From Gemmiger sp. An120 (lineage in GTDB: Bacteria > Bacillota > Clostridia > Oscillospirales > Ruminococcaceae): 64,000 nucleotides of DNA. Where the stretch lies: assembly GCF_002160955.1 (NCBI RefSeq), contig NZ_NFLN01000001.1, positions 248,001 to 312,000 of the forward strand, written 5' to 3'. A model generated the notes under the pieces. It did no database searches. It was not told where the DNA came from and worked only from the letters and a program-made list of their open reading frames with translations. Shown one piece after another: positions 37,695 through 58,410 of the stretch. Both the position numbers and the translations under genes were made by a program. Position 1 is the stretch's first letter; every line of letters begins with the position of its first letter.

Positions 37695-37723
37695 TTGCAA
37701 ACCGCTGCCGGGCCCGGTATACT
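37695..37723 (+). promoter_or_regulatory. Promoter of larEBC
   Basis: TTGCAA (37695-37700), 17 bases, TATACT (37718-37723). The predicted start near 37730 leaves a 180-nt leader before larE. Confidence 0.7.
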
Positions 37724-37760
37724 GAAATCAACAACAAAACCGCCCGCGCCGTCAGGAAGA

Positions 37761-37863
37761 CAGGCCGGGTTCATGCGCCACGAAGGCGGGGGAATACCCT
37801 CTGCGCCGGGTGCGGGGGCTGTGTGCAGTCCGCCGCCACCGGCCTGCTTCGCGGCGCATTTTT
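37761..37863 (+). ncRNA. Riboswitch-like leader of larEBC, unclassified
   Basis: A closing stem CAGGCCGG/CCGGCCTG (37761-37768 with 37839-37846) encloses three local hairpins: CGCC/GGCG (37776-37788), GGGG-AATA-CCCT (37789-37800) and CTGC...GCAG (37801-37828). Two terminator stems compete with it: CGCCGC/GCGGCG (37831-37856), and a longer pairing of 37773-37785 with 37847-37859 (12 of 13 pairs). Both are followed by TTTTT (37859-37863). The terminator and closing stems cannot form together in a simple fold, the arrangement of a transcription-attenuating riboswitch in which ligand would turn expression on. No match to a known class was recognised; nickel or a cofactor precursor is a guess from the downstream genes. 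Confidence 0.5.
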
Positions 37864-37909
37864 CTGTATGGGGCCCCGCCCCGTTCTGTCGAAAGGAGCC
37901 CTTTTCTCT

Positions 37910-38674
37910 ATGCAGCTTTCCGAATTATTTGCCCGCCATCCCAAAGCGGCGCTGGCCTTCTCCGGCGGCACCGACTCCGCGCTGCTGCTGCAGGCCGGGG
38001 TGCAGGCCGGGGCGCAGATCCAGCCTTACTTTGTGTCCAGCCCGTTCCAGCCGGCCTTCGAGCGGCAGGACGCGCAGCAATTGGCCGCCCGCGCCGGGGT
38101 GACCCTCCGGGTTATCGAGCTGGATCCCCTGGCCGACCCGCAAGTGCGGGAAAACGGTCCCCGCCGCTGCTACTACTGCAAGCGGGCCATCTTCACCGCC
38201 CTGCGCCGCCAGGCGTCTGCCGACGGCTATGACCTGCTGCTGGACGGCACCAACGCCTCGGACGACGCGGCCGACCGGCCCGGTATGCAGGCACTGGCGG
38301 AACTGGGGGTGCGCAGTCCGCTGCGGGAGTGCGGCATCACCAAACTGGAGGTGCGGCGCCTGAGCCGGGAACTGGGCCTGTTCACCTGGCAGAAACCCAG
38401 CTATGCCTGCCTGGCCACCCGAATTCCCACCGGCCGACAAATTGACCCCGCGGATCTGGCCCGGGTAGAGGGGGCGGAAAACTGCCTGGCCGGGCAGGGC
38501 TACCGGGATTTCCGGGTTCGCCTGCGGGCGGACGATGCCTGCCTGTTGCAGGTTACCGAAGAACAATGGGGCCGCGCTGCGGCGGAGCGGGAAACCCTCC
38601 GCGCACTGCTGCGCCCTTACTTTGCCCAGGTGTGGCTGGATACCGCCGCCCGCCGGGCAGAACCGATGGAGTGA
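37910..38674 (+). CDS. larE: Nickel-pincer cofactor sulfur transferase LarE
   Basis: 254 residues from the ATG at 37910 after GAAAGGAG; an upstream in-frame extension lies in the structured leader and looks non-coding. PP-loop ATPase motif AFSGGTDSALLLQ (residues 16-28) adenylates the carboxylate of the pyridinium dicarboxylate intermediate. RRCYYCKR (Cys87, Cys90) and Cys167 in KPSYACLATRIP are the conserved cysteines. In L. plantarum a single Cys at the latter site gives up its sulfur; other LarE proteins use a three-Cys [4Fe-4S] cluster, and three Cys are available here. First of larE-larB-larC. Confidence 0.93.
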   Translation: MQLSELFARHPKAALAFSGGTDSALLLQAGVQAGAQIQPYFVSSPFQPAFERQDAQQLAARAGVTLRVIELDPLADPQVRENGPRRCYYCKRAIFTALRRQASADGYDLLLDGTNASDDAADRPGMQALAELGVRSPLRECGITKLEVRRLSRELGLFTWQKPSYACLATRIPTGRQIDPADLARVEGAENCLAGQGYRDFRVRLRADDACLLQVTEEQWGRAAAERETLRALLRPYFAQVWLDTAARRAEPME

Positions 38675-38686
38675 GGAGGAAACAGA

Positions 38687-39442
38687 ATGGAAAAACAGGA
38701 CGCGCTGCAGCTGCTTGAAGCAGTCCGGGACGGCCGGGTAGACCCGCAGCAGGCGCTTTTGCAGCTGAAGCTGGAACCCTTTGAAGACCTGGGCTTTGCC
38801 AAGGTGGATCACCACCGGGGCCTGCGCCAGGGGGCGCAGGAAGTGATTTACGGCGCGGGCAAAACGCCGGAGCAGATCGCCGGCATCCTGGCCTCCATGC
38901 ACCGGCGCGGGGCAGAGAACATCCTGATCACCCGCATGAGCGCCGAAGCCGCCGACCTGGCCCGCAGCCAGGGCCACAGCCTGCAGTACGACCCGCTGAG
39001 CCGGGTGGGCATTGCCTGGCCCCGGCCCCATATCAGCGCCAAGGGCACCATTGTGGTGGTGTCCGGCGGAACCAGCGACCAGGCCGTTTGCGAGGAGGCT
39101 GCCCTCACCGCCCAGGCCATGGGCAACAAGGTGGAGCGTCTCTACGACGTGGGGGTGGCCGGGCTGCACCGTCTGCTGGCCAACCTGGATGTGCTCATGA
39201 GCGCCCGGGTGGTCATTGCCGTGGCAGGCATGGAAGGCGCACTGGCCAGCGTGGTGGGCGGCCTGGTGGACTGCCCGGTCATCGCGGTGCCCACCAGCGT
39301 GGGATATGGCGCCTCCTTCGGCGGGATGAGCGCCCTGCTTTCCATGCTGAACTCCTGCGCCAGCGGGGTCAGCGTGGTGAATATCGACAACGGATTCGGG
39401 GCCGGGTATCTGGCCAGCATGATCAATCATATAGGGGAGTGA
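38687..39442 (+). CDS. larB: Nickel-pincer cofactor carboxylase LarB
   Basis: 251 residues. It carboxylates and hydrolyses nicotinic acid adenine dinucleotide to the pyridinium-3,5-biscarboxylate mononucleotide that LarE uses. The N-terminal part has LGFAKVDHHRGLRQGAQEVI, and the C-terminal half is like PurE/AIR carboxylase: VVVSGGTSDQAVCEEAALTA, GLHRLLANLD, VIAVAGMEGALASVVGGL and VIAVPTSVGYGASFGGMSAL. Complete length. GAGGAGGAAACAG precedes the ATG; it is 12 bases after larE and 4 bases before larC. Confidence 0.95.
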   Translation: MEKQDALQLLEAVRDGRVDPQQALLQLKLEPFEDLGFAKVDHHRGLRQGAQEVIYGAGKTPEQIAGILASMHRRGAENILITRMSAEAADLARSQGHSLQYDPLSRVGIAWPRPHISAKGTIVVVSGGTSDQAVCEEAALTAQAMGNKVERLYDVGVAGLHRLLANLDVLMSARVVIAVAGMEGALASVVGGLVDCPVIAVPTSVGYGASFGGMSALLSMLNSCASGVSVVNIDNGFGAGYLASMINHIGE

Positions 39443-39446
39443 CAGA

Positions 39447-40739
39447 ATGCGCACCATCTATCTGGAATGTGCCATGGGCGCGGCGGGGGATATGCTCATG
39501 AGTGCCTTGAGCGAGCTGCTGGACCCCGCAGTCCGGCAGGAATTTTTTGAAACCATGAACCATCTGGGCCTGCCCGGTGTGCAGGTGACCCGCCGCGACG
39601 CGGAAAGCTGCGGCATCCGGGGCACCCGGGTGGAGGTGACCGTACACGGGCAGGAGGAGCACAGCGAGGATGTGGACCTGCACACCCATGCTGCCCACAC
39701 CCATGATCATACCCATTGCCACGGGGAGGAGCATGTCCACGGGCACATGCATCCCGGCGAAGAAGCCGCCCATTCCCACCACCATCATCACCATGCTTCC
39801 CCGGCAGATATCCGGGCGCTGGTGGAGAAGATGAATGTCCCCGCGCCGGTGCGCCAGGATGTGCTGGCGGTGTACGACCTGATTGCGCAGGCCGAGGCTC
39901 ATGCGCACGGCTGCCCGGTGGAGCAGATCCATTTCCATGAAGTGGGCACCATGGACGCGGTGGCGGACATCACCGGCGTCTGCCTGCTGATGCATATGCT
40001 GGCGCCGCAGCAGGTGCTGGCCAGCCCGGTGCACGCGGGCAGCGGCCATGTGCGCTGTGCCCACGGGGTGCTGCCGGTACCGGCTCCTGCCACGGCCTGG
40101 CTGCTGCAGGGGATTCCCTGGTATGGCGGCAGCGTGCAGGGAGAACTGTGCACCCCCACTGGCGCGGCCCTGCTGAAACATTTCGTCACCCGCTTCGGCC
40201 CCATGCCGCCCTTCTGCGCCGAGAAGATCGGCTACGGGATGGGTACAAAGGACTTCGGGGTGGCCAATTGCGTGCGAGTATACCTGGGCCAGGCAGAAGG
40301 GGAACCCCTGCCCCAGATCGCCCAGCTGTGCTGCAATCTGGACGATATGACCGGCGAAGCTATCGGCTTCTGCACCCAGGTCTTGCTGGATGCAGGGGCG
40401 CTGGATGTGTTCAGCACCCCCATCCAGATGAAAAAGAATCGCCCGGCGGTGCTGCTGACCTGCCTGTGCCGTATGGACCAGGCGGACGAGATGGCTGGTC
40501 TGCTGCTGCGCCATACCACCACACTGGGGGTGCGCCGCACCCTCTGCGAGCGGTATATGCTGGAACGGGAAGCTATTACGGTAGATACCGAATATGGCCC
40601 GGTCAGGGCCAAGAGGGCCCGGGGCTGGGGCGTGGATCGGATCAAGGCCGAGTACGACGACGCGGCCCGCATTGCCCGGCAGAAGGGCGTTCCCCTCCGC
40701 CAGGTGCAGCAGGAAGTGGAAAAATCGGCAGCAAAGTAA
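39447..40739 (+). CDS. larC: Nickel insertion protein LarC
   Basis: 430 residues. It inserts nickel into the pincer nucleotide using CTP. The N-terminal part starts YLECAMGAAGDMLMSAL; a His-rich metal store covers about residues 68-115 (HTHAAHTHDHTHCHGEEHVH, then six consecutive His). IHFHEVGTMDAVADI and EKIGYGMGTKDF follow, and a C-terminal CTP-binding domain begins near 285. In Lactobacillus LarC needs a programmed frameshift between larC1 and larC2; here it is one uninterrupted frame. No larA (lactate racemase) is adjacent, so the enzyme using the cofactor is elsewhere. Confidence 0.95.
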   Translation: MRTIYLECAMGAAGDMLMSALSELLDPAVRQEFFETMNHLGLPGVQVTRRDAESCGIRGTRVEVTVHGQEEHSEDVDLHTHAAHTHDHTHCHGEEHVHGHMHPGEEAAHSHHHHHHASPADIRALVEKMNVPAPVRQDVLAVYDLIAQAEAHAHGCPVEQIHFHEVGTMDAVADITGVCLLMHMLAPQQVLASPVHAGSGHVRCAHGVLPVPAPATAWLLQGIPWYGGSVQGELCTPTGAALLKHFVTRFGPMPPFCAEKIGYGMGTKDFGVANCVRVYLGQAEGEPLPQIAQLCCNLDDMTGEAIGFCTQVLLDAGALDVFSTPIQMKKNRPAVLLTCLCRMDQADEMAGLLLRHTTTLGVRRTLCERYMLEREAITVDTEYGPVRAKRARGWGVDRIKAEYDDAARIARQKGVPLRQVQQEVEKSAAK

Positions 40740-58286: not shown

Positions 58287-58309
58287 AGTTGTCGAAAATT
58301 GAATAGCAA

Positions 58310-58403
58310 CTTATCAAGAGCGGCGGAGGGACAGGCCCTGTGAAGCCCGGCAACCTGCATTTGTATGTAAGGTGCCAAATCCTGCGGGAAACCGAAAGAT
58401 AAG
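58310..58403 (+). ncRNA. SAM-I (S-box) riboswitch
   Basis: The P1 stem is CTTATC/GATAAG (58310-58315 with 58398-58403). The canonical AAGAGCGGCGGAGGGA follows, then GCCC-GAAGCCCGGCAACC-type core (58340-58364), GGTGCCAAATCC (58371-58383) and GGAAACCGAAAGA before P1 closes. It binds SAM and, with the terminator right after it, shuts down metK transcription when SAM is plentiful. Confidence 0.95.
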
Positions 58404-58410
58404 CGTGTAT

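Follow-up and report, generated by a model that had tools for sequence, protein, structure and literature searches.

In Lactobacillus, the lar genes are controlled by LarR, a protein acting at the promoter, and to our knowledge neither a salvage route nor regulation at the RNA level has been described for the nickel-pincer cofactor. How, then, is the supply of this cofactor controlled in Gemmiger sp. An120, where a structured leader precedes larEBC? We addressed the question in a 64,000-nucleotide stretch of its DNA (the window) and in related genomes. LarB, LarE and LarC make the nickel-pincer nucleotide (NPN) from nicotinic acid adenine dinucleotide, according to PMC11770544. Titles and abstract openings found in the searchable open-licence literature, which leaves most subscription papers outside, yielded no report of RNA control of lar genes and none of NPN import. 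The leader is a real, conserved attenuator. Like LarR control in Lactobacillus it targets the nickel-pincer cofactor genes, and unlike that promoter-acting protein it is an RNA attenuator. Its parts, in window positions, are as follows.

37695-37723, + strand: sigma-A type promoter, TTGCAA-17-TATACT (from a scan; shuffles average 0.1)
37742-37770, + strand: HP-A hairpin, loop AGGAA at 37754-37758, closing pair C37753-G37759
37761-37846, + strand: putative closing stem, 37761-37768 with 37839-37846; complementary, unsupported as a functional stem
37773-37863, + strand: intrinsic terminator, arms 37773-37785/37847-37859, branched interior, TTTTT at 37859-37863
37776-37788, + strand: HP-C hairpin, loop ACGAA at 37780-37784, closing pair C37779-G37785
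37892-37898, + strand: likely ribosome-binding site AAAGGAG (from sequence)
37910-38674, + strand: larE, sacrificial sulfur transferase (TIGR00268)
38687-39442, + strand: larB (NF033503)
39447-40739, + strand: larC (TIGR00299 and NF052512)

The sigma-A promoter, the nickel-pincer genes downstream of it and the terminator had all been proposed in an initial annotation of this DNA, and each was recovered here. The same promoter was seen by eye in congeners L003, L004 and L015. NCBIfam models for LarE, LarB and LarC all exceeded their cut-offs, and the closest named match of LarE, among the matches listed, came from an uncultured Gemmiger (99% identity). None of 200 dinucleotide shuffles folds as well as the leader (z -3.42). 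The terminator stem, which a simple terminator scan missed because its loop is long, belongs to the minimum free energy (MFE) structure with a predicted pair probability of 1.0. Its 12 examined pairs are identical in all four Gemmiger leaders; since none of them varies, this is conservation and not covariation.

Attenuation of transcription, with the terminator and an upstream structure excluding each other, was part of the initial annotation and is supported as well. HP-C has a stem of just 4 bp in the window and has bases in common with the terminator's 5' arm. Its predicted probability is 0.97 when the RNA ends at 37792, 0.67 at 37805 and 0.73 at 37846, and falls to 0 once the terminator 3' arm is present, and the terminator is predicted to be about 14 kcal/mol better than the best fold keeping HP-A and HP-C. 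By these predicted energies HP-C and the terminator are mutually exclusive, with which the ON-type direction proposed earlier is consistent. HP-A is also in the MFE structure, with a predicted pair probability of 0.995. The four Gemmiger leaders have the same two loops in the same order with the same terminator overlap. In L015, HP-A loses two of its 11 pairs in the window's register and shows G-U changes, and a shifted register gives 11 unbroken pairs; the outermost pair of HP-C is missing in L034. The arrangement in L011 resembles the reduced form of the window; in L008 the spacing is longer. Folding also gave an extra hairpin at about 37868-37884, downstream of the terminator T-run and ahead of the ribosome-binding site; its stem is changed in L004 and L015 with pairing retained (by eye).

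What found no support is an aptamer built on the closing stem of the initial annotation. The two arms of that stem are indeed perfectly complementary in the window, but it is less conserved than the terminator and disfavoured in energy: one pair is lost in L034 and one in L015 (two of the three congeners), and enforcing the stem costs 7.8 kcal/mol (-68.1 versus -75.9), its pair probability being about 0. Its 5' arm belongs to HP-A, a hairpin overlooked in the first reading, and HP-A and HP-C are units that recur in other loci. By conservation and energy we rejected the closing stem as a functional element.

We then compared larE loci of related bacteria, taking the best 80 of at least 546 confirmed LarE relatives. 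Searching these 80 purely by loop letters gave 81 occurrences of CANGAAG in the 400 nt preceding larE, 70 of them carried by a stem of 4 bp or longer; in the rest of these loci 42 of 608 were so carried (Fisher p 6e-54). For CNGAAG the corresponding figures were 63 of 116 upstream of larE and 137 of 2715 elsewhere. On stems of at least 5 bp in the same best 80, the commonest loops upstream of larE were CAGGAAG (35 loci) and CAGAAG (21 loci). The stems themselves are diverse (CCGG/CCGG, ATAC/GTAT, GCGG/CCGC, CTTC/GGAG and others), while the ANGAA or NGAA loop is nearly always closed by a C-G pair, with TAGGAAG in three loci. Conserved in each hairpin are about seven loop and closing nucleotides, and a larger invariant core is absent.

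A two-hairpin rule, which 8 of 3821 background stretches satisfy, held upstream of larE in 45 of these best 80 of at least 546 loci and failed in 35; in some of the failing loci other genes precede larE in the operon, as judged by eye. A T-run lies within 80 nt in 38 of the 45 element loci versus 174 of 1600 random stretches, and the last hairpin typically overlaps a terminator, at a distance from HP-A that ranges from 26 to about 250 nt. The fullest leaders carry two hairpin pairs, with a pentaloop HP-A, a tetraloop HP-B 18-22 nt on, and last an HP-C that overlaps the terminator; the loop of the terminator itself is NGAA in some cases. In the five canonical leaders that were folded (L037, L045, L056, L060 and L067), the terminator has -25 to -32 kcal/mol and HP-C alone -3 to -9 kcal/mol, and part of the HP-C loop and 3' arm is absorbed into the terminator. 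The window leader (locus L001) passes the relaxed two-hairpin rule with HP-A and HP-C and fails a stricter hairpin rule; it is a reduced form in which HP-B is absent. That stricter rule detects the element in 19 of 56 loci and fires in 17 of 3886 background stretches, for which a smaller zone around larE was excluded than for the relaxed rule.

A covariance model, R1, was built from 25 seed leaders and covers HP-A together with the tetraloop HP-B 18-22 nt on. Among the seeds 98.2% of cells pair and 46 both-side changes occur versus a shuffled mean of 11.5, in a sample that is biased for covariation because the seeds were chosen for having stems. In 16 non-seed sequences, which were found with R1 and hence lean towards it, 100% of the HP-A cells pair with seven both-side changes, a number reached by 0 of 500 shuffles; two pairs show a both-side change, which 126 of 500 shuffles reach. 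HP-B of these 16 was misaligned and left out of the count, and its loop was other than NGAA in five of them (L043, L058, L060, L061 and L104).

When R1 was run over the window and the best 80 of at least 546 larE loci, 34 of the 35 top matches lay upstream of larE, 25 of the 35 being R1's own seeds. The remaining one, L095, stands before a FecCD gene and heads an operon that continues into larEBC, and the 36th match, L065, lies in coding sequence. The window leader itself scored 13.1 bits (E 3.4). It was not listed in a whole-genome R1 search with E up to 10; the window genome gave 13 weak matches, none before larE itself, and those inspected (the five best and L125) were all apparently coding sequence. 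The novelty implied by the initial annotation stood up to comparison with Rfam 15, which gave no gathering-score match in the window leader, in the leaders of ten larE loci searched whole, or in one canonical leader searched with E up to 5. On this negative result for the leaders searched, a known riboswitch class was rejected.

The element is also found before transporter genes. When R1 was scanned over the order (245 genomes) and the class (391 genomes), 11 distinct places emerged, seven of which, on inspection, lie in the gap before larE (L128 and L131), the S component of an ECF transporter (ECF-S; L127, L129, L134 and L136) or a FecCD permease (L126); the other four are chance-like, in or against coding sequence. 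Since 28 and 17 candidates were scored per genome, absence from these two scans means little. A deeper R1 search in 39 chosen genomes, with 30 of 42 places inspected, added an ECF-S gene (L187, G044), a periplasmic binding protein gene followed by a FecCD-like gene, the latter recognised by eye (L177, G060), and the larE leaders L178 and L194, and the other newly opened places were judged to be chance. Of the 30 best ECF-S loci in the chosen genomes, 15 satisfied the two-hairpin rule upstream, as did 9 of 26 larE loci. Within 500 nt at 26 LarA loci no two-hairpin element was found, and a single hairpin was present in L140, L146, L154 and L159.

The distribution of ECF-S suggests what it carries. 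For the following counts, which ignore ancestry, we used 75 genomes that were chosen and not random, nine of them picked because R1 matched them. LarA was defined as PF09861 at E < 1e-5 (28 genomes, without G056 and G035, which lie just over the cut-off of the family) and ECF-S as E < 1e-40, which retains 29 of the 40 genomes found at 1e-10; G000 had no ECF-S match at 1e-10. Among the LarB-less genomes of the chosen 75, ECF-S was present in 12 of 13 with LarA versus 13 of 35 without LarA (p 8e-4), or in 13 of 15 with LarA when G056 and G035 are included. ECF-S was rarer in the chosen 75 where LarB was present (4 of 27 versus 25 of 48 LarB-less genomes, p 0.0015). When the nine R1-picked genomes and two congeners were left out, the former association persisted in the remaining 64 genomes (8 of 9 LarB-less genomes with LarA versus 11 of 33, p 0.006), and the latter weakened to p 0.054 (4 of 22 LarB genomes versus 19 of 42 others). 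ECF-S in 12 of 13 LarB-less LarA genomes thus suggests import of NPN or a precursor by this transporter. LarA, as counted, is absent from 15 of the 29 ECF-S genomes. Genomes G286 and G289, in which the element precedes ECF-S (L127 and L129), have neither LarB nor LarA over the cut-off, and it is possible that they use other NPN enzymes or that their ECF-S has another substrate.

In 18 ECF-S neighbourhoods, P-loop proteins beside ECF-S in L227, L233 and L231 gave weak, sub-cut-off matches to nucleoside or uridine kinases, and L234 and L236 have similar kinase-like neighbours by eye, that of L236 without a Pfam match. Four of these five proteins have an extra N-terminal region. NPN is a mononucleotide, and uptake of a nucleoside that a kinase then phosphorylates would agree with this.

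A candidate for the reader of the hairpins is DUF3842 (PF12953). Its gene lies near larE in 21 of the best 80 of at least 546 loci, and in this set the element is present in 20 of the 21 DUF3842-adjacent loci versus 25 of the 59 others (p 1.8e-5). DUF3842 genomes hold 24 of 24 element loci versus 19 of 32 element-less loci (p 2.3e-4, ancestry ignored), or 19 of 19 versus 24 of 37 under the stricter rule. In the window genome, the DUF3842 gene is on a different contig from larE. DUF3842 also tracks LarA, being present in 26 of 28 LarA genomes versus 14 of 47 others (p 5e-8; the chosen 75, ancestry ignored), in 26 of 30 when G056 and G035 are included, and in 17 of 19 versus 12 of 45 among the 64 genomes; hence it may act as a cofactor enzyme rather than as a regulator. 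Its predicted fold is Rossmann-like, with one of five models confident (pLDDT 81.6 versus 57.6 and less), which suits nucleotide sensing. Foldseek with this model returned generic Rossmann matches, the best a UbiX-like protein (1.1e-4, TM-score < 0.5), and a sequence search of the PDB found no solved relative below E 0.06, with one match at E 0.062. We found no mention of DUF3842 in the open-licence literature. That it is an RNA-binding protein is our inference.

Taken as a whole, we consider it fairly probable that the element is a new antiterminator, made of tandem hairpins and serving the supply of the pincer cofactor, that is read by a protein and is not a nickel riboswitch; the reader is probably a protein, with DUF3842 as candidate. 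With no binder bound, the terminator would win and larEBC would be off. A trans-acting factor gripping the hairpin loops would hold HP-C while RNA polymerase passes, and transcription would then read through. That this factor is DUF3842 reporting on NPN or a precursor, and that ECF-S and FecCD-type transporters import NPN or the precursor, is a reading from sequence to which we give somewhat less than an even balance.

The strongest competitor, which we hold possible at appreciably lower weight, is another RNA-binding regulator (ANTAR, CsrA-like or other), DUF3842 then being a co-occurring NPN enzyme or chaperone. This would accommodate the tracking of LarA by DUF3842, and co-occurrence with the element was examined for DUF3842 and ANTAR alone. 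The architecture is like that of ANTAR targets. In PMC3369931 and PMC8934654, these leaders are described as having two small hairpins, the second overlapping an intrinsic terminator, with hexanucleotide loops bearing A at position 1 and G at position 4, and the bound protein favours the hairpin and read-through. As in the eut, nas and ami leaders, the hairpins here are paired and the second overlaps an intrinsic terminator. However, the loops here have 5 or 4 nt (ANGAA or NGAA) in place of A1/G4 hexaloops, there are often two hairpin pairs, and the element is present in G469, G055 and G097, where no ANTAR match was found. On loop size and on distribution in these three genomes ANTAR binding was rejected. 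CsrA requires GGA and was dropped, since many of the loops (ACGAA, AAGAA, ATGAA and AGAA) are without it. The single ANTAR protein of the window genome (L032) lies directly downstream of a glutamine-synthetase-like gene, by eye, and is probably a separate nitrogen attenuation system.

Less likely still is a true riboswitch, in which the tandem hairpins would bind NPN, a pincer precursor or Ni2+ directly and without a protein. The leader is structured, its terminator is predicted to be mutually exclusive with HP-C, and the regulon, as far as seen, consists of cofactor synthesis and transport genes only, as it does for many vitamin riboswitches. Guanidine-II (mini-ykkC), a two-hairpin riboswitch, likewise has tandem short hairpins with conserved loops, with ACG in some copies; unlike it, the present element has no Rfam match, its second loop position varies and its loop lengths differ. 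Against a riboswitch stand the small conserved part of each hairpin, the 26 to about 250 nt between HP-A and the last hairpin, and the fact that 24 of 24 loci with the element belong to DUF3842 genomes. That the RNA itself senses nickel, the cofactor or a precursor, as the initial annotation had it, we consider less likely: what is conserved is limited to short hairpins, C[ANGAA]G and C[NGAA]G, spaced at varying intervals, a pattern suggestive of recognition by a protein, and the occurrence of the element follows that of DUF3842. An ordinary attenuator or plain terminator without regulated switching, its hairpin likeness a chance product of a GC-rich leader, would agree with the 4-bp HP-C, the invariant terminator pairs of the four Gemmiger leaders and the absence of the window leader from the whole-genome R1 list, but is very improbable given the loops, order and terminator overlap common to those four leaders, the related L008 and L011, and the strong enrichment of the class (70/81 versus 42/608; 8/3821 in the background).

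For the protein-read antiterminator, the fullest version would make DUF3842 a so far unnoticed family of NPN-sensing antiterminators that bind RNA and read C[ANGAA]G and C[NGAA]G, with ECF-S and FecCD importing cofactor or nucleoside and the neighbouring P-loop kinase re-phosphorylating the nucleoside; we put this forward tentatively, as rather doubtful in all its parts together. Were this so, the pincer cofactor would have a regulon at the RNA level across gut Oscillospiraceae and Lachnospiraceae, and experiments would have DUF3842 as a specific candidate regulator, along with candidate importers. It would also explain how LarA bacteria without LarB may live on the cofactor of their neighbours by cross-feeding.

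A second layer of control is possible at some loci. Upstream of larE in L056, L077, L103, L054, L072 and L106 we observed promoters with a long spacer, of the TTGACTTGGAGT..ACTCCAGATGGTA type, which we take to resemble MerR-family operators. In G007 (L010 and L030), near-identical larE-larB copies lie about 2.8 kb apart, and both larE matches contain an in-frame TAA, which may be an assembly matter. Elsewhere in the window, a SAM riboswitch at 58308-58405 on the + strand (RF00162, 83.9 bits) is the sole Rfam gathering-level match within the 64 kb.
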